DNA of 64,000 bases from Synechococcus sp. PROS-U-1 (GTDB taxonomy: Bacteria > Cyanobacteriota > Cyanobacteriia > PCC-6307 > Cyanobiaceae). The stretch is from positions 124,001 to 188,000 of the forward strand of contig NZ_CP047951.1 in assembly GCF_014279755.1 (NCBI RefSeq), written 5' to 3'. The number at the start of each line of letters is the position of its first letter. Position 1 is the stretch's first letter. Under the pieces are notes generated by a model. That model was not told the DNA's origin and did not search any database. It saw nothing but the letters and a program-made list of their open reading frames with translations. A program made the position numbers and the translations under genes. This document shows, piece by piece, positions 3,188 through 54,285 of the stretch.

Positions 3188-4954
3188 TTGAGTGTTCCTC
3201 ATGTCTCCCGTCGTATGCACAATAGTGATCAGGGCAACCTCCTGCATTTGGCTAGCTCTCTGCCAGTATCTGACTTAGATGCTTTTTGTGACACTTGTCT
3301 CGCATCTCTTCCTGCTTCTCCTGAAGTGCAGGACTGTACTTTTATGGCGTTAGGTTTGGCGCATTGGAGATCTCAAAGGTATGAAAAAGCTCTTCATTTT
3401 CTCGATCAAATTCTTATAACGAACCAAAATAATGCCGACTATCTCGTCTTACGTGGGATGGTGTTGAGGCAGTTGCCTGGTTTGCTTGAACAAGCCTTGA
3501 GTACTTTCTGCAGCGCAGTTCTCTTAGATCCGCAAAGGGCAGATACGTATTATAATTTAGCTAATTTATTGTCAGACAATGATAAAGAATTACAGGCTGA
3601 GCGAGCATTCCGAATTAGTCTGAGATTTAATCCCAAGGCTGCTCTTGCATTGCACAATTTAGGAATTTGCTTGAATGGACAGCAGAGATTTGAGGAGGCG
3701 CTCATTTCTCTTTCGCAGAGTGTCAAGGAGGATCCATTGTCTGCAGATGCTTGGTGTAATTTAGGCCTTGCCTATTTTGGTCTAGATCGTTTCACCGATG
3801 CCAAGGATTCTTTTGCCAAAGCAATATCTTTAGACCAATCTCATGGCGCGAGTCATGTAAACATGGGTAATGCGTTGGTAAGTACGCTTGAGCCTGAGCT
3901 TGCTTTGTCTTATCTTCAAAAAGGAGTTGAGCTTGAATCTAGTTCGGCTAATTCTCTTTGGAATCTTTCCCTAGCTTATCTTCTTACAGGGGATTTCACT
4001 CGCGGATGGGATTTTTACGAGGCGCGGTTTTCTACAAAGAACTTTTCTGATTACGAAAGACCTACAGTCGGTTCACAGCCCCAGTCTCTCGCGGACTGTA
4101 CTCATGACCCGAATCGCCCGTTGGTTGTTTGGACAGAACAAGGCATAGGTGATGCTGTTCAGTTCTGTCGTTACTTATTGATGCTCCAGACTGCGTCAAT
4201 TCCTTTTGTGTTTATGACGCGTTCCTCTCTCATGCGTTTGTTCTCTGAATGGTTTGAAATACCCGACCACCTTATCGTCGATCAACCGATGAGTACTAAC
4301 CCTACCGATGATCGTCAGCAAATACCTTTGTTGAGCCTACCCCGCCTTTTTCGTACGGATATTTTAACTATTCCTTCTGTTACCCCATATTTCAAGGCGT
4401 CTTCCAAAACTCCACCTGCCCTTCTAATTTCTCCACCACCAGGTGGACTTTCCATTGGCTTGGTTTGGGCTTCCAATCCCACCAATAAGGCTATGTATCG
4501 AAATAAAAGTTGTCCCCTCGAGTTGCTGATGCCACGTTTTCTCCAGCTTCTCGATCTTGACTTAATAGATTTGCACTGTCTGCAGTTCGGTAGTGACTCC
4601 TGCCAGCTAGATCCTTGGCGTCTCTCTAATCGAATTATCGACTGGTCGGAGTCGATATCTGACTTCTCAGATACCGCTCATGTGCTTAGTCAGCTTGATC
4701 TTGTGATTAGTGTTGATACTGCTGTTGCCCATATTTCTGCCGCTCTAGGTCGCAACACTTGGGTTTTACTGCCGCATAATGCAGATTTTCGTTGGCTTCG
4801 TGACCGCGATGATTCCCCTTGGTATTCTTCGATGCGACTATTTCGTCAGCCAGATCACAGAGATTGGCAGGGTTTGGTTGACCTGGTTAATCAAGCCCTT
4901 GATGAATTATTCATGTTCGACATAAATTCTCTTTCAAAGGAGGTTTTGGTGTGA
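3188..4954 (+). CDS. TPR protein with GT9-like C-terminal domain
   Basis: 588 residues from a TTG start; the in-frame ATG at 3215 is an equally good start and no ribosome site decides. Residues about 35-290 are TPR repeats (for example ADTYYNLANLLSD, AALALHNLGICLN, ADAWCNLGLAYFG). Residues about 310-575 resemble the ADP-heptose:LPS heptosyltransferase fold (GT9): WTEQGIGDAVQFCRYL, SIGLVWASNP and the late motif LVISVDTAVAHISAALG. The same architecture is seen in the pair at 22295-25047. It probably transfers a sugar to a surface glycan or protein, but the acceptor cannot be read. Its stop overlaps the next start by 4 bp (GTGA), so it is translationally coupled to the peptidyl-prolyl isomerase and, through it, to the exporter. 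Confidence 0.75.
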   Translation: MSVPHVSRRMHNSDQGNLLHLASSLPVSDLDAFCDTCLASLPASPEVQDCTFMALGLAHWRSQRYEKALHFLDQILITNQNNADYLVLRGMVLRQLPGLLEQALSTFCSAVLLDPQRADTYYNLANLLSDNDKELQAERAFRISLRFNPKAALALHNLGICLNGQQRFEEALISLSQSVKEDPLSADAWCNLGLAYFGLDRFTDAKDSFAKAISLDQSHGASHVNMGNALVSTLEPELALSYLQKGVELESSSANSLWNLSLAYLLTGDFTRGWDFYEARFSTKNFSDYERPTVGSQPQSLADCTHDPNRPLVVWTEQGIGDAVQFCRYLLMLQTASIPFVFMTRSSLMRLFSEWFEIPDHLIVDQPMSTNPTDDRQQIPLLSLPRLFRTDILTIPSVTPYFKASSKTPPALLISPPPGGLSIGLVWASNPTNKAMYRNKSCPLELLMPRFLQLLDLDLIDLHCLQFGSDSCQLDPWRLSNRIIDWSESISDFSDTAHVLSQLDLVISVDTAVAHISAALGRNTWVLLPHNADFRWLRDRDDSPWYSSMRLFRQPDHRDWQGLVDLVNQALDELFMFDINSLSKEVLV

Positions 4955-5688
4955 GCGATTTGACCCAACCTCCTGTTTTCCTTCCTGAAAAAGTTCAACT
5001 AGACTTGCTAAAACGCATGGATATGCGTAGATTATTTATTCGCAGGTGGTTAGAAGAGGAAATTGCTGACCTAGTTCAGGTAGATGAGGCGTGGTTGGAA
5101 AACAGGCTCACTAATTTTCTTCAGGGTCAACTACTTGAAGATGTTCTTGCTTCTAATTCCTGGACTTTTTCTGATTTGAGTCTTAATCTTTGGCTGCCCG
5201 AGGCTTTGAAGCGTTTTGCAAAATATCGTTTTGGAGCTGGGGTTGAGGAGGAATTTCTGCTGCATGGCTGGAAACGTGATCAAGTTGTATATTCAATGAT
5301 TCGATTTACTACACCTGAGCTTGCGCGTGAGATTTGGATTCGTGCTGAGGAAAATGAAATTAGTTTCACTGAAGCGGCTACTAAATTTGGAGAAGGACCC
5401 GAATCTTCACATCTTGGAGTTATTGGTCCCATAGAGATCCGGCATATCCAGCCTGTAGCTCTTAGGGATTACATCCGCCAACTTGAGCCTGGTCGAATAC
5501 AAGGTCCAGTGCGCCTTGGTGATTGGTTGATACTAATAAAACTTGAGAGAATCATTCCTAATATTTTTGATCAGTCATCTCGAGACCGGCTGATGGACGA
5601 TTTGCTTCAAGACTTTCTTGACGACCGAGTTGGCCGATTTATGGAGGGTGAGTCCCTTGATCAGCTCGAGTATCATCCACCCTCATGA
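4951..5688 (+). CDS. Parvulin-like peptidyl-prolyl isomerase
   Basis: 245 residues, GTG start overlapping the upstream stop. The N-terminal helical half resembles the chaperone segment of SurA/PrsA-type isomerases. The C-terminal half has a parvulin (rotamase PF00639-type) pattern: LAREIWIRAEEN, FTEAATKFGEGPESSHLGVIGPI, and a final LGDWLILIKLERI strand. There is no signal peptide, so it probably acts in the cytoplasm. An isomerase directly before a type I exporter suggests that it keeps the export substrate in a secretion-competent form; this is inference. The 3' end overlaps the exporter start by ATGA. Base composition is AT-rich, like the upstream genes, and changes sharply at this overlap. 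Confidence 0.75.
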   Translation: MSDLTQPPVFLPEKVQLDLLKRMDMRRLFIRRWLEEEIADLVQVDEAWLENRLTNFLQGQLLEDVLASNSWTFSDLSLNLWLPEALKRFAKYRFGAGVEEEFLLHGWKRDQVVYSMIRFTTPELAREIWIRAEENEISFTEAATKFGEGPESSHLGVIGPIEIRHIQPVALRDYIRQLEPGRIQGPVRLGDWLILIKLERIIPNIFDQSSRDRLMDDLLQDFLDDRVGRFMEGESLDQLEYHPPS

Positions 5689-12272: not shown

Positions 12273-13936
12273 CCCGGCCCAGGCTTTCCGTTGTGGTGGC
12301 GGTCTACAACATGCGCCGGGAGGCTCCGCGCACCTTGCAGACGCTCGCCGCCGCGTATCAGGACGTTCCCCGGGATGCCTACGAGCTGATCGTGGTGGAG
12401 AACGGCTCCACCGATCCCCTTGGTGCGGAGGCGGTTGCAGCGATCGATCCCAGCTTTCAGTACCGCTGGAGCGAGCCCGGCAATCCCTCCCCCGCAGCGG
12501 CGATCAATGCCGCAGTGCGCCAGAGCCGTGGGGAGGCGGTGGCGCTGCTGATTGATGGCGCCCGCATGCTGTCGCCGGGGTTCCTGCGCTACAGCCTGCT
12601 GGCCCTGCAGGCCTACCGCCGGCCGCTGATCAGCACCCTGGGTTGTCACCTGGGCGCTCGGCCTCAGCAGCAGGCCGTGCGGGAGGGTTACGACGCGGCC
12701 GCGGAAGATCAGCTGCTGGCGTCGGTGCCCTGGCAGCGGAATGGCTACAGCCTGTTCCGGATCGCCTGTTTGGCCGGGTCGTCCAAGTACGGGATCCTGG
12801 CGCCGCTGGCGGAAAGCAATGCGCTGGTGATGCGCCGCCAGATGTTCGATGAGCTGGGTGGTCTGGAGGAGGGATTCACCAGTCCGGGTGGTGGTTTGGT
12901 GAACCTCGACTTCTACCAGCGAGCCCAGGCGCTGCCGGGGGTGCAGCTGGTCACCCTGCTCGGGGAAGCCAGTTTTCACCAGATTCATGGTGGTGCTACT
13001 ACCGGAGCGGCCAACCGCTGGCAGGCGATGACGGCGGAATACGCCGCCCTGCGGGGGAGGCCGTTCGATCCGTATCCGCGCCCCTGGCCACGGCCGGATT
13101 TTCTGGGGCAGATCCGCCCTCTGTTCCGCCCCTGGCTGCGGCGGGCTTTGGCGGAACTGCGCCCGCTCGAGCAGGCCCAACCCGGATTGGCCTATGCCGA
13201 CAGTCCCCATCCGGAGCGCTTTGCGGCCCCCCCGCAGCGGGTGTTGGCGGTGCTCGGTATGCACCGCAGCGGAACCAGCATGCTCACCGGCACGCTCCAG
13301 GAAGCGGGTCTTGTGCTGGGGGATGTGGTGACGGCAGCACCCCACAACCGCAAGGGCAATCGAGAGGCGTTGCCGATCCGCACCCTCCACGACGATCTGC
13401 TGGCCTCTGCCGGTGGCGACTGGAAAAGCCCCCCGGAGGCAGTGGTCTGGCGGCCGGTGCACCGGCTGCTGCGGGATGCCCTGATCGAACGCTTCGCCAA
13501 TCAACCCCTCTGGGGTTTCAAGGACCCCCGCAGCCTGTTCTGCCTGGAGGGTTGGCGCGAAGCGCTGCCGCAGCTAGAGGCCGTTGCGATCGTGCGTCAT
13601 CCCCTGGAGGTGGCTGCGTCGTTGCAGGCCCGGGACGGCCTGCCCCTCGCCGATGGGATGGCGTTGTGGGAGCGCTACAACCGCCGCCTGCTCCACTGGA
13701 TCGAGCAGTTCGACTGCCCCCTGCTGGTGTTTGAGCCCGAAGCGGAGGGGATCAAGCAGCAGCTGGCGGGCTTGATCAAGACGCTTGACCTGCCCCGTCA
13801 GCTCGGCCCTGAGGAGCTGCGCTTTTTCGCCAGCGAACTCCGCCATCAAGGTCTTGCTGCCCGCGAGCAGGGCATCCTCCCGGCTTCGGCTCGCCGGCTC
13901 CATCAACAACTGCTGGAGCGGGCTATTCAGGCCTGA
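12269..13936 (+). CDS. Fused GT2 glycosyltransferase and sulfotransferase
   Basis: 555 residues from ATG 12269, which overlaps the preceding stop. Residues about 1-260 are a GT-A family 2 domain (RLSVVVAVYNMRRE, LIVVENGSTD, LLIDGARML, and a large GG-x-LVNLDFYQR acceptor segment). Residues about 315-540 are a P-loop sulfotransferase-like domain: VLGMHRSGTSMLTGTL for the PAPS 5'-phosphosulfate site and AIVRHPLEVAASL for the 3'-phosphate site. The likely role is to add a sugar and sulfate it, or two sequential steps on one surface glycan. The fusion order is clear in one uninterrupted frame. The 3' end overlaps the convergent gene by 10 bp. Confidence 0.8.
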   Translation: MTRPRLSVVVAVYNMRREAPRTLQTLAAAYQDVPRDAYELIVVENGSTDPLGAEAVAAIDPSFQYRWSEPGNPSPAAAINAAVRQSRGEAVALLIDGARMLSPGFLRYSLLALQAYRRPLISTLGCHLGARPQQQAVREGYDAAAEDQLLASVPWQRNGYSLFRIACLAGSSKYGILAPLAESNALVMRRQMFDELGGLEEGFTSPGGGLVNLDFYQRAQALPGVQLVTLLGEASFHQIHGGATTGAANRWQAMTAEYAALRGRPFDPYPRPWPRPDFLGQIRPLFRPWLRRALAELRPLEQAQPGLAYADSPHPERFAAPPQRVLAVLGMHRSGTSMLTGTLQEAGLVLGDVVTAAPHNRKGNREALPIRTLHDDLLASAGGDWKSPPEAVVWRPVHRLLRDALIERFANQPLWGFKDPRSLFCLEGWREALPQLEAVAIVRHPLEVAASLQARDGLPLADGMALWERYNRRLLHWIEQFDCPLLVFEPEAEGIKQQLAGLIKTLDLPRQLGPEELRFFASELRHQGLAAREQGILPASARRLHQQLLERAIQA

Positions 13937-43612: not shown

Positions 43613-43798
43613 ATGGGCGCGCTGATTGAGGCCGATCCTGTGGACCTGTCGACAGCCTTGTTGGCTTGGTGGGAGCGCCATGGTCGCGGCGGTATCCCTT
43701 GGAAGCTGTTGCCAGGTGGTGGCCTCCCTGCTCCAGAGCAGCACCTCGACCCCTATGGCATCTGGATCGCCGAGGTGATGCGGTGCTCTGCGGCATAG
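43613..43798 (+). pseudogene. mutY: Displaced 5' fragment of native mutY
   Basis: 61 codons from ATG 43613 to a TAG at 43796. It reads LSTALLAWWERHGR and ends GIWIAEVM before five element-derived residues (RCSAA) and the stop. Compare the intact gene at 53128: SLLAWWEVHGR and CWIAEVMLQQTQ. The fragment therefore carries the true 5' end of the host gene up to codon 56, including half of the catalytic helix, and is cut at the recombination site. It cannot be a functional glycosylase. The original mutY promoter, between it and the RND adaptor, now faces the integrase gene. Confidence 0.9.
43763..43781 (+). repeat. Left attachment site core (attL)
   Basis: A 19-bp stretch, identical to 53308-53326 except for one C/T difference; the 13 bases GCCGAGGTGATGC (43769-43781) are exact. 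To the right of it the two sequences diverge completely, while to the left both encode MutY. It lies 51 bp before the integrase start, which fits an att site of a serine integrase. Confidence 0.8.
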
Positions 43799-43832
43799 GT
43801 GACTAGCTTGTCTGTGTCGGGCAAGCCTCTCC

Positions 43833-45692
43833 ATGGCGCTGGCTTATTCCTATCGCCGCGTTTCCAGTGGTGGCCAGGCACAAGGCGATAAGTCAGGTCT
43901 GCAGCGCCAGGAGGAGGCTCTAAAGGATTGGATGCGCAGGCATCCCGACTTTCGTCTTGCTGAGGAACTTCTCGATCCAGGCGTCAGCGCTTACACCGGC
44001 CGGAACCGCACCCAAGGGGCGCTGGGGCGGTTTCTAGAGGCAGCTCGCTCCGGTTCTATCCCGAAGGGGTCCGTGCTGGTCGTTGAGGATCACAGGCGCT
44101 TCTCCAGGCAAGAGCCTCTGGATGCACTGGAGTCTCTGATCCGGGATGTCTGGGGGCAGGGGCTTGGGTTTGCGGTCTGCAGCTATCAGGGTGGCTCTCC
44201 TTTGTTCAGAGAGACGACTGGGGCCCAAGACCTCGCCATGCTGTCGTTCCTCTTCGCACAGGCTCATGCCGAGAGCGACGAGAAGTCGAAATGGTCTCGT
44301 GGTGGGTGGCGCAAGATTTACGAGGCGCAGGATCGTGGTGAGAGGCCGCGGCATCGCAATCCCTACTGGATTGACCGGGATGAGTCGTTGCCTGACAACC
44401 CATTTCGCTTAAACGGCTACGCCAAGTCGATCGAGGCCATGTTCAAGATGTGCCTGGCGGGGATGGGCCAGACGCAGATTGCCGATGAGCTGAATACGGA
44501 GGGCTATGCAGCCCCTCCTGCATCTAAGGACGGTCGTTGGAACCGTGGTCAAGTGAGTCAACGGTTAAGGGACCCCGCTGTCACCGGCTTGTTGCAGCGC
44601 AAAAACAGCCATGAGATACCGGGTTATTACCCCTCTGTTGTTGATCAGGAGACCTTCACAAGAGCCCAACGGGCGAAGGCAACGCGTGATCGGAAGCGTT
44701 CAACCACCAAGGCGCGGAAAGTTCACTTCCTGTTCAGTGGTTTGGTCCGTTGCGCGGGTTGTGGGTCTCTGTTGACTTACAGGGCGGCCGGTCGATACGC
44801 CAGACCCGGGCATCCCGGTTATGTCACCTGTTCTGACAGTGCTGGTGCGGTCGCAAAGCAGGGTGCGACGCGATGTCGTGAGCAGCTTGGTGCTTGGCGG
44901 AAGTCGCCGACCATCAATCTTCCTTTGGATGAGGCCGAGGCGATGCTGATGGCGACCTTGTCGTTGGCCGACTGGCAGAACCTCTTCCCCATCCAGATGG
45001 GGCCGGAAGTGGAGGATTTGAGCAGGCAGATCCGTACTGCAAACGATCAGCTTCAGGAGCTCAGTGGAAGGATTCAGCGCGGTGAACATCGTCTTGCTGA
45101 AGAGCTGACGAAGGAGCTGCCCAACGAGATTCAGGTCTCTGTTCTGACCGGTGCCATCTCTCAGGCGCGTGAGCAAGTTCTAGAGCTCGAGCGAGAGATT
45201 TCTGAGTTGAACTACAGGCTCAGCGAGTTACGCCCTCAGGACCCTGTGCTGAAGGCGCAGGACACAGTCGAGATCGTGTCCCAGTTTCTTCAGCATGGGC
45301 TTCAAGAGATTCCCAAACGGATGCAGTTCAACTCTTGGCTTCAGCAGCTCGGTATTTCTTGGGTCATGAGTGGAGACTCGATTCAGCTTCACTACAACCG
45401 GCTTGGTCCCAATGGGTTTCCGACGGATTCCTGGGGGACTGCGCTTGGAGAGCTGCATGCCCTGCGAGCGATGGGTTACGAGCGCGGCTTTGCCTTCTTG
45501 TTCGCTGGCAAGACTTGGTTCAATCAACTGGTGACAGGACGAGGAGGGGTGATCAAGGAGCCTGGCAAGTTTCCGCGGCCTGTCTTCCCCCCAGAGGTTG
45601 TGGCTGGTCTCCAAGAGATTGCTCGCTTCCGTGCATCAGAGCTTGGTTACGAAGTTGATCTTGGAGGCGATAGAAGCGAGGGACGACAATGA
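43833..45692 (+). CDS. Large serine recombinase (integrase)
   Basis: 619 residues, ATG start. Resolvase-type catalytic domain with Ser11 in YSYRRVSSGGQ and the conserved EDHRRFSR and LSFLFAQAHAES helix region; then a recombinase domain (GYAKSIEAMFKMCLAGMGQTQIADELN); then a zinc ribbon with VRCAGCGSLL and two later cysteines (YVTCSD, TRCRE); then a coiled coil (about 385-475). This is the architecture of phiC31/Bxb1-like integrases, which recombine attP with attB at a two-base crossover. It lies directly inside attL. After insertion it sits downstream of the former mutY promoter. Confidence 0.95.
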   Translation: MALAYSYRRVSSGGQAQGDKSGLQRQEEALKDWMRRHPDFRLAEELLDPGVSAYTGRNRTQGALGRFLEAARSGSIPKGSVLVVEDHRRFSRQEPLDALESLIRDVWGQGLGFAVCSYQGGSPLFRETTGAQDLAMLSFLFAQAHAESDEKSKWSRGGWRKIYEAQDRGERPRHRNPYWIDRDESLPDNPFRLNGYAKSIEAMFKMCLAGMGQTQIADELNTEGYAAPPASKDGRWNRGQVSQRLRDPAVTGLLQRKNSHEIPGYYPSVVDQETFTRAQRAKATRDRKRSTTKARKVHFLFSGLVRCAGCGSLLTYRAAGRYARPGHPGYVTCSDSAGAVAKQGATRCREQLGAWRKSPTINLPLDEAEAMLMATLSLADWQNLFPIQMGPEVEDLSRQIRTANDQLQELSGRIQRGEHRLAEELTKELPNEIQVSVLTGAISQAREQVLELEREISELNYRLSELRPQDPVLKAQDTVEIVSQFLQHGLQEIPKRMQFNSWLQQLGISWVMSGDSIQLHYNRLGPNGFPTDSWGTALGELHALRAMGYERGFAFLFAGKTWFNQLVTGRGGVIKEPGKFPRPVFPPEVVAGLQEIARFRASELGYEVDLGGDRSEGRQ

Positions 45693-45841
45693 AAACAAGC
45701 GTGAGCTTCAGCAGTTCCCTGAAGGCGCTCTGTTCGAGTTATCAACAGTCTTCTTTGCTTCGAGCTGAGTGTGGCGACTCTATGGACTGGAAAGATGTTG
45801 GACGTTGCCCTGTTTTTGTAGTGGGGTGTGTAGATCTATAG
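45689..45841 (+). CDS. 50-residue ORF coupled to the integrase
   Basis: ATG 45689 overlaps the integrase stop (ATGA), with a purine-rich GAGGGA eight bases upstream. It reads MKTSVSFSSSLKALC and ends at TAG 45839-45841, inside the inverted repeat. I do not recognise it. Its place directly after a serine integrase is where recombination directionality factors are sometimes found, but it lacks any match I can name. It may also be chance coding space. Confidence 0.3.
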   Translation: MKTSVSFSSSLKALCSSYQQSSLLRAECGDSMDWKDVGRCPVFVVGCVDL

Positions 45842-45853
45842 ACCCCACTACAA
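45816..45853. terminator. Perfect 12-bp inverted repeat between convergent genes
   Basis: Arms TTGTAGTGGGGT (45816-45827) and ACCCCACTACAA (45842-45853) enclose a 14-base loop. It lies between the ends of the integrase and the primase-helicase, covering the primase stop codon. There is no T-run after the hairpin in either direction, so it is not a canonical intrinsic terminator; it could still end transcription or block read-through between the two opposing units. Confidence 0.5.
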
Positions 45854-48559
45854 GAATGGGGACAGCTCCAACGCGATCACCTCAAAGCGGTAGGTACGGA
45901 CGCCATCAACCTGGAGCCTCTGCCTCTGGGTGGTGAACCCCGCCACCTTGAGCAGCGCCTTGGCGAACGTTGCGGGGACGTCGTCGTCTGGTCCAGGAAT
46001 GGTGACGCGGCCACCGAGGATGTCTCGCAGTTCCCGTGCCTCGTGCTTATTCAGGCTCTGCACCTCTGCTGCCATCGCGCGGAACTCAGCGCTATCGACA
46101 GTGAATGACCTTGCAGCGATCAGGTCATGCACCCTGACGCGCAGCATCCACACATAGGCATGGCTGGGGTCTACCGCTGCCAGGTCCACCCAAATGCCGT
46201 TCTTGGTCTCCCTACTGGCCTCTGAGTTGGCCTGGTCAATGGTCTTCTGACCAGTCATGACCTCATGGATCAGCTGGGTCCGGCGGCTCAGTTCAGCCTG
46301 CTTTTTCTGTTTATCCCGCTGAGCCTTCGGGATAACAACAGCGTTGTCGCTGATCAGCTCGTCAAACGGCCGGAGCGTGTAGCCCTGATCCTTGAGGCGG
46401 CATGCCAACACGTGCTCGTTATTGACGGCCTCATAGTTGACCCGAGCTTCGAGGGCGACTGAGTAGCGCACGGTTGCCGGGTCAACGCCTTTCAGGTGGT
46501 CTCGGTAGAGCTCCTGCATCTTCGGGTCGATCGCAGTGAACCTGGCACGGCTGACCTCTTCTTGTGATGTCCGCCCAGTTCCGATCTTTGCCATCGGTGC
46601 TGAGACAGGCGACAGCATGATCCGCCGATCTGCGCTTCGTGCCCTGGCGACGGCTTGCATGGCGTCTTGGGGGGCCATCGCGAATTGCTGCACACAAGCA
46701 GCGATGCCAACGGTTGAGGCCTCATACGAGATGCCAGAGACCACAGATGGGCTGTATCCGACCAAGGTGTACTGACCTGCGACCGCATTGGTGTTGGACA
46801 TCAGTTCAGCGACCTCCAAGGATGAGGAGTTGTCGCTGTGGATCAGAAAGCTGCGAGAAAAAGGTGCGCTGAATTTCTTCAGTGACTCTGCTTCGCCCAT
46901 CGAGAGCCAGACCTGCTGGCCTTGATCGATGGTCTGTCCGCACAGCTGCTGGAGCTTGTCGATGTTGTCAGCAGTAGCGGCGCCATAGAACAGGTCGGAC
47001 TGCCGGCGAAACGTGGTGTTGATGACCTGAGGTTGAACACCAGACAGCGCCTGTAGCCATTCCAGCTCGATGTCGCCTATGCCCGCTTCAGCAGCGATGA
47101 TGATGAGCTCTGGGTTTCGTATCAACCGTTCAACTGACCGGATCGCCTCACGCCTGCTGTCTCTCATCCCGTCAGTCCCGTCCAGGAGCAGATGCAGGGT
47201 TGCTTGGGTGAGCTCGTCAAGGAACAGCACAGCTGGCCTGGGGTTCTCCTCCAGGTCGTGGCTCCATCTCCACATGTCCAACTCGCCGCTGTCCTTCTTG
47301 ATCGATTCGCAGCAGCAGAACAGACCGTCCCTGCGCTCTCCACGTTCACGCTCAAACGTGCCTCTGGATGAGCTGAGGTCCCTGACACCGAACTCAGCAG
47401 CGCCTTTGTGGACCAGCGAGGCACGGTGATACAGACCCAGCACGATGACCTTGTGGCCCAGGGCCTGCTCCATCAGGTCAATGGCACCGACTGAGGCCTT
47501 GGTCTTGCCAGTACCCGTGGGGCCCTCCAGGGCGATAATTCGCCCCTGCATCCGCGCCTTGACCAGGTCCTCCGGCTCGAACTCGCGATCGATCGTGGTC
47601 GTCCGCCAGTTGCCCTTCAGTCGGGAGTAATGGCCCTTTTGACCCTCGTTCAGGTTGAAGCTGTCGGTTTGATCGGCTGAGCGGTCAAACGTGCCGGCGA
47701 CCAGTGCCTTGCCCTTCGCCGCGAAGTAGTCGTCCGTCTTGGCCTTGCCTGGATCTGTCCAGGTGAACCAGTTGGCATCAGCTCCAGCTCGATTCAGCTG
47801 CCCTGCTACTCGCTGCGCAGCGCGCTCAGAGTTGCTGCCGTTGTCAAACCTGACAATCATCCGACGGCCACCCTTCGCGAGCTTCTGCAGGGGCACACGG
47901 AGGCGATCTGATCGGGTCTTTTGCCCTGCTGAGTTGATGCCGTTAATGCCGACGGCGAGCTGACCATGGGAGGTCGCAGACAACGCCTTAAGGGCTGATT
48001 CCTCGACCCAGATGGGGACCGCCGGGTTACTGAAGATGAACTGCCATGCCATCTCCGGGGTGTACTCCTCCCGAGTGCAGATGAACCCGTGATGATCCAG
48101 CAGATGCAAGGCGTACTCCCACGTCAACGGCGGGAGGTAGACCTTCACCTGGGTGCCGGTGCAGTCGAAGCGAACTTCACCCTTCTCTCGGGTGCGGATG
48201 CTGGGGTGCTTGCGTTGGCCTGCAAAGTGCAGTCCGGTCAGAAGCACGCCTTTGTTGGTCATCCCGACGCTGTAGATGTTCCAGTTCTCGGGCGGAGTTT
48301 CTCGGAACCTGTAGTCCGTCTTGCGAGTGATGGAGCGCTCTTCCCAGGCGACCTCGTTAGGGCGCAGGTTGAGATTTTCTTTGACCTCCTTGATCTGCTC
48401 CTGTGCCTTGCGATTTAACGCCTCACGCCAGCCTTCATCAGCGCCAAGCGTGATCGCTCCGCGGATGTAATCGTCAAGATTAATCAGATGGTCGACAACT
48501 AACTCGGCTCTGAGTTGCTCAGTTGTGTGGGGCCTGAGGCCCTGAAAGTTCTTGCGCAT
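45848..48559 (-). CDS. DUF3854-type primase-helicase replication protein
   Basis: 903 residues from ATG 48559 (the frame is open to 48622). The N-terminal half contains a Toprim-like DUF3854 pattern: WVEESALKALSATSHGQLAVG (about 182-202), RFDNGSNSE (237) and KTDDYFA (274). The C-terminal half is a P-loop helicase: ALEGPTGTGKTKAS (Walker A 346-353), AVLFLDELT (Walker B, Asp at 448), and a late AVARARSADRR that resembles motif VI. Such fusions replicate plasmids and satellite-like elements of cyanobacteria. It probably starts replication from the palindromic region just upstream of its start. Confidence 0.75.
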   Translation of the reverse strand: MRKNFQGLRPHTTEQLRAELVVDHLINLDDYIRGAITLGADEGWREALNRKAQEQIKEVKENLNLRPNEVAWEERSITRKTDYRFRETPPENWNIYSVGMTNKGVLLTGLHFAGQRKHPSIRTREKGEVRFDCTGTQVKVYLPPLTWEYALHLLDHHGFICTREEYTPEMAWQFIFSNPAVPIWVEESALKALSATSHGQLAVGINGINSAGQKTRSDRLRVPLQKLAKGGRRMIVRFDNGSNSERAAQRVAGQLNRAGADANWFTWTDPGKAKTDDYFAAKGKALVAGTFDRSADQTDSFNLNEGQKGHYSRLKGNWRTTTIDREFEPEDLVKARMQGRIIALEGPTGTGKTKASVGAIDLMEQALGHKVIVLGLYHRASLVHKGAAEFGVRDLSSSRGTFERERGERRDGLFCCCESIKKDSGELDMWRWSHDLEENPRPAVLFLDELTQATLHLLLDGTDGMRDSRREAIRSVERLIRNPELIIIAAEAGIGDIELEWLQALSGVQPQVINTTFRRQSDLFYGAATADNIDKLQQLCGQTIDQGQQVWLSMGEAESLKKFSAPFSRSFLIHSDNSSSLEVAELMSNTNAVAGQYTLVGYSPSVVSGISYEASTVGIAACVQQFAMAPQDAMQAVARARSADRRIMLSPVSAPMAKIGTGRTSQEEVSRARFTAIDPKMQELYRDHLKGVDPATVRYSVALEARVNYEAVNNEHVLACRLKDQGYTLRPFDELISDNAVVIPKAQRDKQKKQAELSRRTQLIHEVMTGQKTIDQANSEASRETKNGIWVDLAAVDPSHAYVWMLRVRVHDLIAARSFTVDSAEFRAMAAEVQSLNKHEARELRDILGGRVTIPGPDDDVPATFAKALLKVAGFTTQRQRLQVDGVRTYRFEVIALELSPFL

Positions 48560-48565
48560 TGGGTT

Positions 48566-48606
48566 TGTGTGTGAGGAAGGTCCGGACCGACCACCTCGCA
48601 CACACA
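48566..48606. repeat. Nested palindromes upstream of the primase-helicase
   Basis: TGTGTGTGAGG (48566-48576) and CCTCGCACACACA (48594-48606) form an imperfect inverted repeat around a perfect 10-bp palindrome, GGTCCGGACC (48579-48588). The block starts 7 bp from the primase-helicase start. It is a good candidate for a replication origin or autoregulatory operator of the element. Confidence 0.5.
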
Positions 48607-48612
48607 GGGCCA

Positions 48613-48819
48613 ATGAACCCAAACGAGGTGGCTATCCGGCTCAGGGAGCTACTCCTGAGGTTGTTTAAGTTCGCCACAGAAGTGGCAAGAGAGCAGTTGT
48701 TGTTCTCGTTGCAAGTGTTCCGAAGCGGTGGCAACTACCTCGAAATGCCAACCCTTCAAGTTACCTGGGCTTGTTCAGGTTCGTTCGGAATGTCGATAAC
48801 AACCGGAAGCCTGGAGTAG
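48613..48819 (+). CDS. Small ORF divergent from the primase-helicase
   Basis: 68 codons from ATG 48613, beginning MNPNEVAIRLRELLLRLF, helical and Leu/Arg-rich at the N-terminus. No clear Shine-Dalgarno and no family recognised. The divergent position next to a replication gene would suit a small regulator, but this is inference and it may not be coding. Confidence 0.25.
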   Translation: MNPNEVAIRLRELLLRLFKFATEVAREQLLFSLQVFRSGGNYLEMPTLQVTWACSGSFGMSITTGSLE

Positions 48820-49098
48820 TTACCTCTCTCTCTTGGCTTCCTTTAGAACCGATCTTGATTCCTTTTACAAGGGCCAACCCAATAGATCCTCAGGATGGAT
48901 GGAGAGAAGGCGTAGAGCCTTCATCGAGAAGCAGTGGGAGGCGACTGGAGGACGTCCACTTCGCTGGGAATGCTGCCCGCTAGATCACTCTGAGCAGCTA
49001 CAAAATCACCACCAATCCGAACGGTTTGGCTCTTCCGGATGAAGCTCGATGACGCTGCTTGAAGCCCGTTGGAAGCCTGTTGGAAAGCGCACAAGTCG
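48820..49098. other. 279-bp stretch with no certain gene
   Basis: An open frame on the plus strand (ATG 48899 to 49042, or from TTG 48833) reads MERRRRAFIEKQWEATGG and later WECCPLDHSEQLQNHH. The two Cys followed by His-His is suggestive of a metal-binding fragment, but no family is recognised and no ribosome site is seen. Otherwise I find no structure here. Confidence 0.2.
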
Positions 49099-49584
49099 AT
49101 GAACTCCTTCCCACAACTCCCTGGTGAGCCCGCAGATGCCTTCGAGCAGCTCCTGCTGCATCGAGACTTTGGCCCCAGTCGTCAGTTCAGTCAGACAGCG
49201 GATGTTGTGGGCTGCTCTGAATCAACCCTGCGCCGACGAGCAGAACAGTGGCGCTGGAACGAGCGTCTGGCTGACTACGACTCCGGGATGCTTCAGCAGG
49301 CATCAGAGGCACGAACGAAGGAGGACCTTGAGCGCTGCAAATACCAGCTTGAGACGTTCCGACAAGAGCAGCTCGCACGAGCTCGCACCGTTGGAGATCG
49401 AGCTGAAGAGCTACTGGCGATGGTCGAGCGCAGCGTCAGGCATCACCTGGAAGCTGGCACCGTTCTCCAAGGGCGTGAGCTTCCTTCCGTAATGGCCGCG
49501 GCCTGCAAGGCCTTGGAGGGTGCCATGAACATCGAGGCGACGGCTCTTGGGGTCGCAGGGCTGCTTGAAGATTTTTCGAACTAA
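49099..49584 (+). CDS. Terminase-small-subunit-like protein
   Basis: 161 residues from ATG 49099. The N-terminal half has a helix-turn-helix of the TerS kind: FSQTADVVGCSESTLRRRAEQW followed by RWNERLADYDSGML, with the Trp-Asn-x-Arg pattern common after the HTH in phage TerS. The rest is a long amphipathic helix region (about 75-150) suited to oligomerisation. TerS selects the packaging site on phage DNA; in phage satellites a private TerS redirects packaging to the satellite genome. The call rests on pattern and not on a profile search. The alternative is another DNA-binding protein. Confidence 0.5.
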   Translation: MNSFPQLPGEPADAFEQLLLHRDFGPSRQFSQTADVVGCSESTLRRRAEQWRWNERLADYDSGMLQQASEARTKEDLERCKYQLETFRQEQLARARTVGDRAEELLAMVERSVRHHLEAGTVLQGRELPSVMAAACKALEGAMNIEATALGVAGLLEDFSN

Positions 49585-49826
49585 CGAAGACTTTTGACGG
49601 AAAGATGGAGTGAACACAGCATGAGAGCTTCTTGAAGCTGGTCCCCGTCAGCGTCATCTGGCTCCAGAAAACCTCCGGCGTTCAGCTCTAAGGTCTTCCA
49701 TGCGATGGATTGATGAGGCTGGCCTCGATGCGGCCTTTTGTGCAGCATGTAGAAACCGTCCAAGCGCGCACCCGCTTCAACGACTTTGGAGGAAAAAGCG
49801 TTTATCATTGCCACGTTTTTGATCAC
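49581..49826 (-). CDS. Hypothetical 81-residue ORF
   Basis: ATG 49826, convergent with the TerS-like gene (4-bp overlap). It includes ARLDGFYMLHKRPHRG and ELNAGGFLEPDDADGD, which look like real protein but match no family I know. No ribosome site decides the start. It may be a small element gene or a remnant. Confidence 0.3.
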   Translation of the reverse strand: MIKNVAMINAFSSKVVEAGARLDGFYMLHKRPHRGQPHQSIAWKTLELNAGGFLEPDDADGDQLQEALMLCSLHLSVKSLR

Positions 49827-49892
49827 GAGGATCTCGGCATGATGGGAAATATTTTGATTGAAGCCTGAACACTGCGATACTCGTACGACTGA

Positions 49893-50291
49893 TCAAGCCC
49901 CGCCACAAGGCTCCCAGCTCTTCAACATCGTTTTGATCTCAGTCTCCAGCACCTTCAATTCATCCAGGCGCTCATGAATCTCGCTTAATTTTTCGCGCAT
50001 CGTGGTCTTGAGATCACTGCAAGTACAGATTCCAGATCGCTGTGCCTGAATTACTTTTTTCACCAAATCAAGAGGCAAGTCCATGGCCCGCAGACGAAGG
50101 ATTAGACTAAGATCGTCAAAAACAGACTCATCAAACAATCGATATCTGGAATCGGTACGTGATACTGGCAGCAATAAACCTTCATCACAATAAAAACGAA
50201 TCGTTTTCACCGAAATGTTGCTTCTTGCAGAGACAACTCCAATCTTGAGTAGATCGCCAGGCGCTTTAGGCACGAAGGGTTGACTCTCCAC
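49893..50291 (-). CDS. MerR-family metal-responsive regulator
   Basis: 132 residues from GTG 50291; GTG 50273 would give 126 residues and leave the operator free. The winged helix is typical (KIGVVSARSNISVKTIRFYCDEGLL, SRYRLFDES), followed by a long dimer helix. Cysteines at GICTCSDLK and in the terminal EPCGGA are probable metal ligands. It should twist the long-spacer promoter of the divergent DUF305 operon in response to a metal, likely copper or a related thiophilic metal given the neighbours. Confidence 0.85.
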   Translation of the reverse strand: MESQPFVPKAPGDLLKIGVVSARSNISVKTIRFYCDEGLLLPVSRTDSRYRLFDESVFDDLSLILRLRAMDLPLDLVKKVIQAQRSGICTCSDLKTTMREKLSEIHERLDELKVLETEIKTMLKSWEPCGGA

Positions 50292-50310
50292 TTACTGGAG
50301 ACTCCACAAT
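50280..50310 (+). promoter_or_regulatory. MerR-type promoter with 19-bp spacer
   Basis: -35 TTGACT (50280-50285) and -10 CACAAT (50305-50310) are 19 bp apart, the overlong spacing typical of MerR-controlled promoters. The spacer contains the dyad CTCCA (50286-50290) and TGGAG (50296-50300). It drives the DUF305 gene starting at 50332. It overlaps the first codons of the regulator, so the regulator represses itself or starts at 50273. Confidence 0.75.
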
Positions 50311-50331
50311 AGCGACGTGATTGTTCTTTCC

Positions 50332-51033
50332 ATGCGTCGTATCGCTTTTGCTCTGGCCGCCATCTCGGCACTGCCCCCTCAAGTCGCATTGGCCCAAATG
50401 GACCATGGGATGCATCACCCAGCACCCGAGGAGGTCAAGCAAGAGTCGCCCACCCAATCCGGTTCCCATGAGCACCACGCCCATGGCATGGGACCAGCAG
50501 GCAGCACCTACGACCTGCGCTTTATCGATGGCATGGTCGAGCATCACACCGGGGCGTTGCGGATGAGTGAGTACGTCTTCAATATCGGCGCCCCTGGGGT
50601 GGGAGCCCTTGCGAACAGCATCTGGGACGAACAGGCCCGTGAGATCAAGGCGATGCGCCAATGGCGCAAGGCCTGGTACCCCGATGCGCCCGTGTATCCC
50701 GTGGCATTGCGCCCAAACGGCGACCCCAACTCCATGGCCGATCTAGTGCGGATGAGTCCTGCGGTGATTGCCGCCATGCGCATGTCGGCAACAAAACCAA
50801 CGCGAGAGAACAGAGTGCAGTGGTTTTTAGAGGGCATGATTGAGCACCACGGCGGCGCCCTTCAGATGGCCCATGAGGCCCGCAAAAACTCCACCAACCC
50901 AACCATCCTTCGTCTTGCGCGCGAGATCATCGTTGCCCAGCGCAAAGAAATCATCGAACTCCGCAAGATGCTGAAAAGCAAAGGCATGAATAAGCCTGAC
51001 TACTACAAATTTGATGGCCTTTTCGCGCTGTGA
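50332..51033 (+). CDS. DUF305 family protein, His/Met-rich, exported
   Basis: 233 residues from ATG 50332. A signal peptide (RRIAFALAAISALPPQVALAQ) is followed by a His/Met-rich segment (MDHGMHHPAPEE, HEHHAHGMG) suited to copper binding. Two DUF305 repeats follow: FIDGMVEHHTGALRMSEYV and FLEGMIEHHGGALQMAHEA, each with the M-x-x-H-H-x-G-A core of this ferritin-like family. The function is not established; the family is often near copper genes. It is the first gene of a three-gene operon with overlapping starts. Confidence 0.85.
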   Translation: MRRIAFALAAISALPPQVALAQMDHGMHHPAPEEVKQESPTQSGSHEHHAHGMGPAGSTYDLRFIDGMVEHHTGALRMSEYVFNIGAPGVGALANSIWDEQAREIKAMRQWRKAWYPDAPVYPVALRPNGDPNSMADLVRMSPAVIAAMRMSATKPTRENRVQWFLEGMIEHHGGALQMAHEARKNSTNPTILRLAREIIVAQRKEIIELRKMLKSKGMNKPDYYKFDGLFAL

Positions 51034-51281
51034 AAGCAATCACCTTTAATGCCTTCACCCCAAGGATGATGGGCTGTATCTCCATCTCATTCGCCCTCAT
51101 CGCTGCTTTCGTTGTCCATCCGATGGCCAGCCATGCTCACGGCAAAGGCATCTACCCATCCAAAGCTGACGCGCAACAACGTGCCAGTGTGATTGGTTGC
51201 AATACGGTGCATCAGAACAACGGAAAGTGGATGCCCTGCGCAGATGAGCGTGAACTCCACCGCCAACTTCGCAAGCTATGA
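51030..51281 (+). CDS. Small exported DUF3721-like protein
   Basis: 83 residues from GTG 51030, overlapping the DUF305 stop. N-terminal hydrophobic signal (CISISFALIAAFVVHPMASHA). The mature part has GIYPSKADAQQRA, then GCNTVHQNNGKWMPC, matching the pattern of the cyanobacterial DUF3721 group with two Cys that may bind metal. The function is unknown. It is coupled to both neighbours by 4-bp overlaps. Confidence 0.65.
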   Translation: MKAITFNAFTPRMMGCISISFALIAAFVVHPMASHAHGKGIYPSKADAQQRASVIGCNTVHQNNGKWMPCADERELHRQLRKL

Positions 51282-51547
51282 ACCAACGTCCGCTTTCACG
51301 GCGAGCACGCAAGATTCACCGTTGGCTGGTTCCAATCGCCGCTGTTCCGTTGCTGATCACCGCAGGCACGGGATCTCTCTACAGCTTGCTCTTGGAGCAA
51401 GACATTGATGCCTTCTGGCTGCTCAAGATCCACACCGGGAATTTCGGTGTTCTGAATCTTCAGCCCGTCTACCCAATGCTCTTGGGTGGGCTCACCGTCA
51501 TCGTCACAGTTTCGGGTGCAGCGATGCTGTTAAAACCATCGCGATGA
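51278..51547 (+). CDS. Small PepSY-associated membrane protein
   Basis: 89 residues from ATG 51278 (ATGA overlap). Two membrane helices: WLVPIAAVPLLITAGTGSLY and YPMLLGGLTVIVTVSGAAML. The N-terminus RKIHRWLVPI and the inter-helix WLLKIHTGNFG resemble the truncated PepSY-TM (peptidase-like) proteins found in cyanobacteria near metal or iron genes. It may anchor or couple to the exported neighbours. The molecular role is unknown. Confidence 0.6.
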   Translation: MNQRPLSRRARKIHRWLVPIAAVPLLITAGTGSLYSLLLEQDIDAFWLLKIHTGNFGVLNLQPVYPMLLGGLTVIVTVSGAAMLLKPSR

Positions 51548-51560
51548 CCCCCGTTCCCCG

Positions 51561-51583
51561 AAGCGGTCTCCCTGAAACCGCTT
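51561..51583. terminator. Hairpin between convergent metal-cassette genes
   Basis: Perfect 7-bp arms AAGCGGT (51561-51567) and ACCGCTT (51577-51583) with a 9-base loop, 14 bp after the PepSY gene and touching the DUF411 stop. No T-run follows. It probably acts as a bidirectional transcription stop. Confidence 0.45.
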
Positions 51584-52115
51584 AGTAACGCGCGAAGACG
51601 GAGGTTGTTCCGTCATGGGCAATTGCAAGCACCTCGAAACGTTCAGCCTCGACACCAGCCACCTCCATCCCAGGAGAACCCATTGGCATCCCTGGAACAG
51701 CAAGACCACGGATATTGGGCCGTTCCTTCAACAGCCTCTGGATCGCAGAAGCAGGCACATGCTCTTCGATCACATATCCCTCCACAACCGCGGTATGATA
51801 CGAAGCCTGTTGAGGGCTGACACCACGCGCCTTTTTCACAACATCCATGTCCTCAGTGACATGGTCATCAATGCGAAATCCCGCTGAAGCGATGTGGGAT
51901 CCCCATGACGTACAGCAACCGCAACTCGCCGATCGATACACCGTTATCTGTGGCCCGGTCGCACCACTAGTGACGGGCATCTCACCATCCCCTTTCGCAT
52001 CACCATGCGCCTCAACCGGTTGACTCGCTGAAAGCAGAGAGACGACCACGAAGGCTCCGACCAAGCTCTGTCGCAAGGCAGTTGAACACAGGTGCGCAAA
52101 ACGCGAAGCCTTCAT
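51582..52115 (-). CDS. DUF411 metal-binding protein
   Basis: 177 residues from ATG 52115, preceded by AAAGGA. A signal region (LRQSLVGAFVVVSLLSASQPVEAHG) is followed by ITVYRSASCGCCTSW, whose C-x-C-C motif is the hallmark of DUF411, and later VVEGYVIEEHVPASAI and GLAVPGMPMGSPGM, also family-typical. DUF411 proteins are linked to copper and other metal resistance as periplasmic metal binders. It converges with the DUF305 operon and forms the second arm of the metal cassette. Confidence 0.85.
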   Translation of the reverse strand: MKASRFAHLCSTALRQSLVGAFVVVSLLSASQPVEAHGDAKGDGEMPVTSGATGPQITVYRSASCGCCTSWGSHIASAGFRIDDHVTEDMDVVKKARGVSPQQASYHTAVVEGYVIEEHVPASAIQRLLKERPNIRGLAVPGMPMGSPGMEVAGVEAERFEVLAIAHDGTTSVFARY

Positions 52116-52134
52116 GGATTCCTTTAGGAGACAA

Positions 52135-52275
52135 ATGAGATCAAGCTCCGCATTATCGCGAGTTGAGCTTTGTCCAGACCAGTTCCAGGCTCTTGCTGGC
52201 ATCGATGCGCAGACAGCACGAATCGTGCTGGAGAACTCGGTAGCTCTGAAGGTGGATAACTCGGGGCTTTATTGA
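52135..52275 (+). CDS. Short ORF with strong ribosome site
   Basis: 46 codons from ATG 52135; TAGGAG lies five bases upstream. It reads MRSSSALSRVELCPDQF and ends with NSGLY before TGA 52273. Its start is 20 bp from, and divergent to, the DUF411 start. I do not recognise the protein. A hairpin (CAGCACG/CGTGCTG, 52214-52230) lies within it. It could be a leader peptide or a small element protein. Confidence 0.35.
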   Translation: MRSSSALSRVELCPDQFQALAGIDAQTARIVLENSVALKVDNSGLY

Positions 52276-52354
52276 GTTCAGCGTCGGCCTTCATGGCATG
52301 CGCTGACTACCCATCGATAAAGTTCGCTGTTACAGGTTCAACCGACGTAGACTT

Positions 52355-53128
52355 GTGGAACAACCGACTGGATTCCCGTTGTCTTTGCCTGATCGTCCTC
52401 TGAGTCCGAGTCGTTGGCTGGCCTACTACCGGGTCAGTACAGATCGCCAGGGAAACTCCGGCCTGGGCCTCGAAGCGCAGCGGGCCAAGGTTGAAGTAAT
52501 GGCTTCCGAGCGGGGGGCTGTGATTGCGGCTGAATTCGTGGAGGTTGAGAGCGGTCGGAAGAACGATCGTCCTCAGTTGGCCGCGGCTCTGGCTCAGGCT
52601 CGCGCGGAGAAGGCTGTCATTGCTGTTGCCAAGATCGATCGTCTGGCTCGTGATGCTGGCTTCGTCTTGAAGCTCGCCAACGAGGCAGAAAAGAACGGGA
52701 TGGGTGGCTTCATCTTCTGCGACTTGCCAGACATTGATGCCACCACCAGTGCTGGTCGGATGGTTCTCACGATGATGGCCAGCGTTGCTGAGTTCGAGGC
52801 ACGTCGGATCAGCGAGCGAACTAAAGAAGCGTTGGCCGCGGCCAAGGCCCGAGGCGTGTGTCTTGGGGGGTACCGGGAAGGTGCTGCTCAGAAGGCGTCG
52901 GAGCGCAAGCAGAAGGCCATTGCTGAGGCGGAGGGACTGCGCGGGGTTCTTGAGCCAATGGTTCGTGCAGGCTTGAGCTACAGGGCCATGGCTGATGCGC
53001 TTGCAGGGGTTGGCAAGCTCAGCAGCACGGGAAAGCCACTGGCTCCGGCGCAGATCGGTCGGATCCTGCAGCGCTTGGGTTTGTCGGGAAAGCTGCTGGG
53101 CAGTGACCAGGCTTGGGTCGCTGCCTGA
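52355..53128 (+). CDS. Small serine recombinase (resolvase/invertase type)
   Basis: 257 residues from GTG 52355. Catalytic Ser28 in LAYYRVSTDRQGNSG, then VAKIDRLARDAGFVL and MASVAEFEARRISERTKEAL, which are standard resolvase motifs. The C-terminal 70 residues hold a helix-turn-helix (YRAMADALAGVG, PAQIGRILQRLG). The stop overlaps the mutY start (TGATG), so translation of the hybrid mutY is coupled to it. It may resolve replication dimers of the element or take part in its excision; which of the two recombinases does the insertion is not proven by sequence. Confidence 0.9.
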   Translation: MEQPTGFPLSLPDRPLSPSRWLAYYRVSTDRQGNSGLGLEAQRAKVEVMASERGAVIAAEFVEVESGRKNDRPQLAAALAQARAEKAVIAVAKIDRLARDAGFVLKLANEAEKNGMGGFIFCDLPDIDATTSAGRMVLTMMASVAEFEARRISERTKEALAAAKARGVCLGGYREGAAQKASERKQKAIAEAEGLRGVLEPMVRAGLSYRAMADALAGVGKLSSTGKPLAPAQIGRILQRLGLSGKLLGSDQAWVAA

Positions 53129-54285
53129 TGGGTCAACGACGCAGCGCTGAGCATCGCGACTTCAGTCCTCTAGCGGCTGAGCTCAGTCACTCCCTGCTGG
53201 CCTGGTGGGAAGTCCACGGCCGGAAGGATCCTGCGCTGAAGCCGTGGATGTTCACCAAGGACGGAAGGTGGCCCGAGCCCCATGAACATCTCAATGTCCT
53301 GGAGTGCTGGATTGCCGAGGTGATGCTGCAGCAGACCCAGTTGGCGGTGGTGCTTCCTTTCTGGACTCGTTGGATGACGGCATTTCCCACGTTGGAGGTG
53401 CTGGCGGCGGCTTCCTTGGATGACGTGCGGCTGCAATGGCAGGGCCTCGGCTATTACTCGCGGGTCCGCCGGTTGCATGAGGCGGCGCAGATTCTGGTGG
53501 GCGGGCCGTGGCCCCGCAGCTTGGAGGAGTGGATGGCGTTGCCGGGCATCGGCCGCACCACTGCTGGCAGCATCCTCTCCAGTGCCTTCAATGCGCCGTT
53601 GCCGATCCTGGATGGCAACGTCAAACGGGTGCTGGCGCGATTGACGGCTCATCCGCGCCCGCCGGCCCGCGATGAGGGGTTGTTTTGGAGCTGGAGCGAG
53701 GCCTTGCTTGATCCGGATCGGCCACGGGATACAAACCAAGCCTTGATGGATCTGGGGGCCACGCTTTGCACCCCCCGCCAGCCGTCATGCAACCTCTGCC
53801 CCTGGCTCTGGCGGTGTGCTGCCTACGCTTCCGGCGATCCCTGCCGCTGGCCCGTGACCGATGCCCCCAAGCCCCTGCCCTTCAAGGTGATCGGTGTGGG
53901 TGTCGTCCTCAACACGGCAGGGGAGGTGTTGATTGATCAGCGGCTGGAGGAAGGTTTGCTGGGGGGCATGTGGGAGTTCCCCGGTGGCAAACAAGAAGAG
54001 GGCGAAACGATCGAAACTTGCATCGCCCGCGAGCTGAAGGAGGAACTCGGCATTGCGGTGACGGTCGGCGATGAATTGATCACGGTTGATCACGCCTACA
54101 GCCACAAGAAGCTGCGCTTCGTGGTGCACCTCTGCGACTGGGTGTCGGGGGAGCCGCAGCCTCTGGCCAGTCAGCAGGTGCGTTGGGTGCGACCGGATGA
54201 TCTGAACAATTTCGCCTTTCCAGCTGCCAACGCCAAGATCATTGCGGCGTTGCTTGGCAGGTTGAGCAGCTCTGCCCACTCTTAG
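53128..54285 (+). CDS. mutY: A/G-specific adenine DNA glycosylase with Nudix domain, element-host hybrid
   Basis: 385 residues from ATG 53128. It removes A mispaired with 8-oxoG. Catalytic Glu64 in WIAEVMLQQTQ; helix-hairpin-helix LPGIGRTTAGSI with Asp162 in LDGNVKRVLARL; [4Fe-4S] cysteines 214, 221, 224 and 230 (spacing C-x6-C-x2-C-x5-C). The C-terminal domain holds a complete Nudix box (GGKQEEGE to REL-EELGI, about 286-308), so an 8-oxo-dGTPase activity is possible. Codons 1-66 lie left of or on the right att core and come from the element; the rest is the resident gene. Expression now depends on the upstream recombinase gene. Confidence 0.95.
   Translation: MGQRRSAEHRDFSPLAAELSHSLLAWWEVHGRKDPALKPWMFTKDGRWPEPHEHLNVLECWIAEVMLQQTQLAVVLPFWTRWMTAFPTLEVLAAASLDDVRLQWQGLGYYSRVRRLHEAAQILVGGPWPRSLEEWMALPGIGRTTAGSILSSAFNAPLPILDGNVKRVLARLTAHPRPPARDEGLFWSWSEALLDPDRPRDTNQALMDLGATLCTPRQPSCNLCPWLWRCAAYASGDPCRWPVTDAPKPLPFKVIGVGVVLNTAGEVLIDQRLEEGLLGGMWEFPGGKQEEGETIETCIARELKEELGIAVTVGDELITVDHAYSHKKLRFVVHLCDWVSGEPQPLASQQVRWVRPDDLNNFAFPAANAKIIAALLGRLSSSAHS
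53308..53326 (+). repeat. Right attachment site core (attR)
   Basis: Matches 43763-43781 with one mismatch (T for C at 53313); the exact 13-bp core is 53314-53326. It encodes the WIAEVM helix of MutY and sits at codons 61-66 of the hybrid gene. Element DNA lies to the left and host mutY to the right. Confidence 0.8.

Follow-up and report, generated by a model that had tools for sequence, protein, structure and literature searches.

The subject of this report is a mobile genetic element in a 64,000-nucleotide stretch of the Synechococcus sp. PROS-U-1 genome (the whole stretch is called the window here; it is C1:124001-188000 of a single-contig genome of 2.576 Mb, genome code G000). The element is an island of 9,545 bp (43,769-53,314) that interrupts the DNA repair gene mutY, and its ends are marked by two copies of a 20-nt repeat that agree at 19 of 20 positions and lie 9545 nt apart. 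From left to right it carries genes for a large serine recombinase (LSR), a replication protein, a homologue of the phage terminase small subunit (TerS), a set of cargo proteins (MerR, DUF305, DUF3721, PepSY-like and DUF411) and a small serine recombinase, which is followed by mutY (Table 1). The first-pass annotation had singled out the adjoining primase-helicase and TerS-like genes as a possible cyanophage satellite; both open reading frames are present, and they form only the middle of the island.

Table 1. Features of the mutY island and its junctions, in window coordinates (att, attachment site)
Feature	Coordinates	Strand	Evidence or remarks
Displaced host mutY 5' stub (MGALIEADPVD...WIAEV, stop soon past junction)	43613..43798	+	Resembles native N-termini of G112 (L087) and G242 (L089)
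Left att repeat copy, 20 nt	43762..43781	.	19/20 nt identical to 53307-53326; junction comparison
LSR, 619 aa	43833..45692	+	PF00239 1.1e-13, PF07508 3.1e-13; phrog_95 integrase 4.3e-54
DUF3854 primase-like/helicase replication protein, 903 aa	45848..48559	-	PF12965 5.3e-15; phrog_4913 replication 5.4e-10
Terminase-small-subunit homologue (TerS), 161 aa	49099..49584	+	phrog_6299 1.4e-11
MerR-family regulator, cargo	49893..50291	-	Pfam MerR_1 9.5e-12
DUF305 protein, cargo	50317..51033	+	PF03713 1.2e-29
DUF3721 protein, cargo	51030..51281	+	PF12518 3.4e-15
Short PepSY_TM-like membrane protein, cargo	51278..51547	+	Weak Pfam match 0.061, below cut-off
DUF411 protein, cargo	51582..52103	-	PF04214 5.1e-25
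Small serine recombinase, 257 aa	52355..53128	+	Pfam Resolvase 1.2e-33; stop TGA overlaps mutY start ATG
Element-supplied mutY N-terminus, 64 codons, MGQRRSAEHRDF...	53128..53320	+	100% DNA identity in window, G186, G239
Right att repeat copy, 20 nt	53307..53326	.	Repeat search and junction comparison
Host mutY remainder, fused to element N-terminus	53321..54285	+	HhH-GPD 1.8e-20, NUDIX_4 5.8e-32; MutY structures matched

The island was compared with Pfam (all 9 element proteins) and PHROGs (7 of the 9, excluding the DUF3721 and PepSY-like proteins). The resolvase and recombinase domains of the LSR scored above the Pfam cut-off and its zinc-ribbon domain below it. The DUF305 protein is probably involved in metal handling and the DUF411 protein in metal binding. 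No capsid, tail, large terminase (TerL) or relaxase/conjugation gene was recognised in these comparisons, nor was any AlpA-, Sid- or Ppi-type gene recognised in the island. A repeat search brought out no outstanding origin-like repeats, only the att repeat, and there was no plasmid match to the element. The original description of an integrase, a replication protein and a TerS-like gene in the company of no capsid, tail or conjugation genes is thus borne out.

The DUF3854 domain of the replication protein spans residues 172-284 and scores well over the curated cut-off; Pfam AAA/helicase matches are weak, and the helicase part (residues 342-644) is the portion that resembles the PHROGs replication family, in agreement with the DUF3854/helicase identity anticipated for this gene. 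The TerS protein, which would have 171 residues if an alternative TTG start at 49069 were used, matches no Pfam family over the cut-off. Its assignment rests on its relatives: all 15 aligned homologues match phrog_6299, 'terminase small subunit' (best 3.2e-21). These 15 sequences (alignment A1) were picked out of 32 listed places, leaving out identical copies, fragments, G277 (stops), G301 (frameshift) and G002, whose TerS was joined later for the pac-site test and the TerS tree. A tblastn search with TerS found matches in just 7 of 50,697 phage records, the best being the annotated terS genes of the cyanosiphophages P-SS2 (27%, 1e-7) and S-CBS2 (25.5%, 4e-7), in both of which terL follows terS directly. 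A match to a non-phage DNA-binding family, an outcome named beforehand as counting against the satellite idea, did not occur.

Structural comparisons were also made. Short N-terminal helices followed by a long helix are the usual architecture of TerS proteins, and the predicted structure (mean predicted local distance difference test score, pLDDT, 89.2) begins with short helices, followed by one of 66 residues and a further one at the C-terminus. Its nearest viral models in BFVD (E 1.9e-6 and 2.1e-4, TM 0.80 on the query) are both 'uncharacterized' or unnamed entries. A profile search of solved structures gave only chance-level rows, and Foldseek found nothing in the PDB at E <= 0.001. Among the many helical bundles listed by VIA-align, the phage small terminase 4xvn came in 42nd place (Z 7.0 over 79 residues) and scored no better than unrelated structures; the PDB comparisons leave the fold undecided. 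In a phylogenetic tree, a branch with support 93/90 separates the 15 element TerS proteins from three phage TerS proteins, although the branches of the latter are long. Judged by sequence relationship, the 161-residue protein is a member of the cyanosiphophage terminase-small-subunit family.

The protein gene in which a serine recombinase had been suspected to lie proves to be mutY. The island splits it at the codons for A-E-V-M, so that a truncated host 5' end stands on the left and a complete mutY on the right. The left stub is host-specific and ends at the codons for W-(I/V)-A-E-V-M in the window and in G186, G239, G301 and G235. On the right, an N-terminus derived from the element runs in frame into the host sequence M-L-Q-Q-T-Q in six loci, those five and G314, where the right junction was seen and no left one; it varies little among five of these loci, the version in G235 having diverged. 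In relatives with an empty site (G112, G242) the native N-terminus resembles the window's left stub, and joining the window's flanks yields an intact native mutY of 375 residues beginning MGALIE. Site-specific insertion and repair of the mutY reading frame are evident from these junctions, and the fusion protein would be expected to have MutY activity. The Glu codon at 53317-53319 corresponds to the catalytic Glu37 of E. coli MutY. Because the small recombinase gene's stop codon and the mutY start overlap (TGATG, 53126-53130), translation of the two is probably coupled.

The replaced N-terminus can be followed through the window's genus, where mutY is present in 27 of 34 genomes and its N-terminus is readable by motif in 25 (two of the 27 loci are unreadable). 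Five of the 25 have the element-type MGQR start (G000, G186, G273, G314, G291), and two more (G267, G089) have a similar N-terminus. The loci in those two genomes (L069/L082 in G267, L061 in G089), with no visible element in L082, may be donors of the N-terminus or scars. Decayed mutY-site elements with broken or divergent recombinases and an intact chimeric mutY were seen in G273 and G291 of the same genus (L083, L084/L085).

The same element also occurs at a second target. In G295 (L033, G295:C1:1100001-1120000) a copy whose LSR is 96% identical lies inside cobW (Pfam cobW 5e-57); joining the flanks restores the cobW frame as an open frame of 442 residues, and the ends of the element match those seen at mutY. 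The mutY gene of that genome (L126, G295:C1:128201-148200) has an element-type N-terminus, is preceded by a small-recombinase remnant and has a broken TerS upstream, as if its mutY site had been taken by an older, decayed element. The cobW copy carries ZnuA, HupE/UreJ and an OprB porin as cargo, and it stands beside an apparent host zinc-uptake set of znuABC type (read from translations; the cargo ZnuA alone was tested by family).

Evidence that the island is a real mobile element comes from comparing it with its hosts. The LSR, replication, TerS and small recombinase genes and the mutY N-terminus are 100% identical in DNA between the window, G186 (same genus) and G239 (another genus), and the remaining backbone is 99.6-100% identical, whereas the host part of mutY is only 86.1% (G186) and 67.0% (G239) identical to that of the window, and the neighbouring gene fruK only 69.6% and 64.5%. 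A near-identical backbone among diverged host genes argues for recent transfer across three species and two genera; by this measure the element has spread recently across genera, possibly inside virus particles. Within this backbone the cargo region (about 50,293-52,060) is a mosaic with up to about 25% difference per 100 bp, different pairs of sequences agreeing in stretches, and the cargo therefore recombines apart from the backbone. G186 also has a second TerS element (L037) and, some 16-18 kb from the L037 TerS, a second cargo set whose DUF3721, PepSY-like and DUF305 proteins are 99%, 98% and 65% identical to those of the window; it may belong to the second element, and it fits cargo exchange. 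Relatives carry either ZnuA, HupE/UreJ and a porin together or a sulfotransferase as cargo, where the window has metal genes.

How far does this family extend? In 400 genomes sampled from the host's family (59 genera), searched with TerS, the LSR and the small recombinase, TerS homologues were found in 25 genomes and 10 genera. Close relatives of the LSR (68-100%, full length or nearly so) occur in G186, G239, G295, G301 and G235, with a partial one in G314, while any LSR match at 1e-10 occurs in 34 of the 400 genomes; Synechococcus sp. AG-679-C18, BO 8801 and AG-670-F04 are the named records among the relatives. The small recombinase has relatives at 1e-30 in 36 genomes. At other loci TerS is accompanied by another replication protein, of 986 residues, and by integrases with tyrosine-recombinase-like residues (GxR, R.....R and Y, by motif reading; PHROG matches are weak at 0.0022 and 0.026, with none for a third), and these integrases adjoin tRNA-Val, tRNA-Thr and tRNA-Pro genes. 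At one locus, L035, the DUF3854 protein, TerS and small recombinase lie near a serine recombinase of another kind. It had been proposed that a serine-recombinase version in a protein gene would form a lineage separate from the tycheposons of Prochlorococcus. The LSR at a protein gene stands, but since the same TerS/replication backbone is also found with tyrosine-type integrases beside those tRNA genes, the serine version is better described as an integrase swap than as a wholly separate lineage. On this comparison of genes, the window element is one outcome of module swapping, in which integrase and target site have been exchanged within one modular family.

How would such an element move between cells? 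In the account that we favor, the LSR recombines the circular element with a bacterial attachment site (attB) in the A-E-V-M codons of mutY, the exchange taking place in or beside the sequence GAGG. Integration would sever the 5' end of the host gene, and the other end of the element, bearing the small recombinase and a foreign N-terminus of 64 codons, would restore the frame. The DUF3854/helicase protein would replicate the element, its TerS would steer the TerL of a helper cyanosiphophage so that element DNA is packaged, and the cargo between TerS and the small recombinase would be exchangeable. Catalysis by the LSR and replication by the DUF3854 protein are predictions from their families; packaging by a helper TerL is suggested because the TerS belongs to a phage family and the element has no virion or conjugation genes of its own. 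The proposal as a whole, comprising LSR integration in mutY, self-directed replication and TerS-directed packaging by a helper cyanosiphophage, seems to us quite likely, and the element is probably a phage satellite. It has a phage-related TerS and, among the seven proteins compared with PHROGs and the nine compared with Pfam, no TerL, capsid or tail protein, together with a predicted integrase and replication protein.

The family phrog_2 was rejected as a TerL probe, having matched 11 of 14 controls, and the P-SS2 TerL itself was used instead on the 18 TerS-carrying genomes. P-SS2-type TerL is absent from the whole genome G000 and occurs in 6 of the 18, never beside a TerS match (one TerS lies at a contig end). 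Two carriers of TerS elements, G106 (L144, G106:C11) and G124 (L143, G124:C7), encode proteins 40% identical to P-SS2 TerL, so resident helper prophages may exist there.

Several results weigh against the favored account. Scans of IMG/VR viral contigs with TerS, the LSR, the replication protein and the small recombinase gave no relative, although such collections may omit satellites that lack viral hallmark genes; a search of viral contigs with the TerS alignment led to one 74.7-kb contig, of which the 10.9 kb that were read resemble a cyanosiphophage rather than an element. There is no DNA match to 45690-53400 in the phage records. Synonymous variation along terS (9 sequences), used as a test for a pac site, showed no depression, 26.8% of permutations being as low. 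In G301 a frameshift interrupts TerS, and the LSR/mutY relative in G235 (L048, 11.1 kb) has no TerS match and carries instead a 1643-residue type ISP/IIG restriction-modification enzyme and an AAA_25-like protein. Finally, a promoter and terminator scan, at or below chance, found no promoter for the recombinase-mutY unit. The first-pass idea of a cyanophage satellite keeps its TerS family, its recently spread mobile element and its missing virion and conjugation genes. Positive evidence of element DNA in virus fractions, the other check named beforehand, has so far not appeared, and packaging and phage induction are conjectural.

The negative searches of viral proteins and phage DNA, the G235 relative and the missing pac-like signal are also what would be expected of a non-viral integrative element, transferred by transformation, in vesicles or through generalised transduction, in which a domesticated TerS-like DNA-binding protein serves as a regulator or replication accessory. 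We regard this as unlikely, though it deserves to be taken seriously. TerS has been kept at full length in 15 homologues despite divergent replication and integrase modules, all 15 belong to the one terminase family, and five of the seven LSR-type elements keep it intact. That the island is a decayed prophage of a P-SS2/S-CBS2-like phage, retaining the integrase, replication protein and terS, is very improbable: its TerS has kin in cyanosiphophages, one of which, P-SS2, carries an annotated integrase, but an intact backbone that is mostly 100% identical across genera shows no decay, the sole phage-record match of the replication protein is to Vibrio phage VP882 (21%), LSR matches in those records reach only 27-30%, and no P-SS2-type TerL lies beside any TerS match. 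The notion that the left fragment arose by random mutY duplication and is no att-site stub can practically be set aside, for although duplication can yield short truncated gene copies, the left fragments are host-specific and like the native N-termini of empty sites, the right N-terminus hardly varies among five of the six hosts, and the off-target cobW copy has the same element ends.

The element shares features with several known systems. Tycheposons are described as cargo islands that occupy tRNA genes and use a tyrosine recombinase (PMC10872708), and they have been proposed as satellites (PMC10803314, PMC11389934). Like those of Prochlorococcus (PMC10872708, PMC10803314, PMC11389934, PMC10187409), the window element is a picocyanobacterial cargo island, and its backbone relatives sit beside tRNA genes with tyrosine-type integrases; unlike them, it has an LSR at mutY and no tyrosine recombinase, which sets it apart from the tycheposon descriptions. 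Its insertion is in mutY, and the sole tRNA call of the window is at 12717-12810. That call (ARAGORN, 94-nt tRNA-Cys with anticodon ACA, unusual for Cys) is probably false. In picocyanobacteria, islands that hold a small serine recombinase close to a novel tyrosine integrase occupy tRNA-Phe and tRNA-Cys sites (PMC10187409). A small serine recombinase likewise ends the window element, which, unlike those islands, has neither a tyrosine integrase nor such a tRNA site.

Insertion into the 5' end of a protein gene has parallels as well. Islands and prophages associated with dusA target the 5' end of a protein gene and replace it with island sequence, and their integrase has been compared in a tree with integron, XerCD and genomic-island integrases (PMC4482086). 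The window element likewise supplies a new 5' coding end, in frame, and differs in its LSR and its mutY target, cut at the codon for the catalytic glutamate. SpyCI, also phage-like, occupies the 5' end of the DNA repair gene mutL; it silences that gene when integrated, with an island-borne promoter rescuing the gene in one strain, unlike the window element, which provides a new N-terminus and an open frame (PMC3430984). With the PICMI and PICI satellites the element shares small size and the combination of integrase and replication genes; PICIs average 9.5 kb, and terS is among the packaging-redirecting genes of other satellite families (PMC10803314). It differs from them in its lack of a recognisable AlpA-, Sid- or Ppi-type gene, and its helper is hypothetical. 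It does not resemble an integrative mobilizable or conjugative element, Pfam having found no relaxase or conjugation genes in its nine proteins. No published description of a serine-recombinase element in mutY was found in a search of one open-access library. Elsewhere in the window, positions 1-5500 have a G+C content of 39-49%, compared with about 60% in the rest, and may represent a further island.

Perhaps a satellite lineage has come to use the most conserved active-site codons of a repair enzyme as a landing pad that works across genera, carrying the front end of the enzyme behind its own recombinase gene. Expression of mutY, and hence the host rate of G:C to T:A mutation, would then be under satellite control and would shift upon helper-phage induction or excision. 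This extension is speculative and we regard it as unlikely. Gene-end replacement itself has a precedent in the dusA islands. The LSR, whose natural attB lies in a conserved stretch of codons, could also be put to use in cyanobacterial genetics. The element links three things usually met separately, namely satellite-like islands bearing TerS, a serine integrase with a defined attachment site in a protein gene, and replacement of a repair enzyme's N-terminus, and it raises the testable question of whether its helpers are cyanosiphophages like P-SS2 and S-CBS2. Carried by different genera, the identical backbone is a clear sign of recent transfer between them, and the swaps of integrase, replication protein and cargo show how such islands rebuild themselves.

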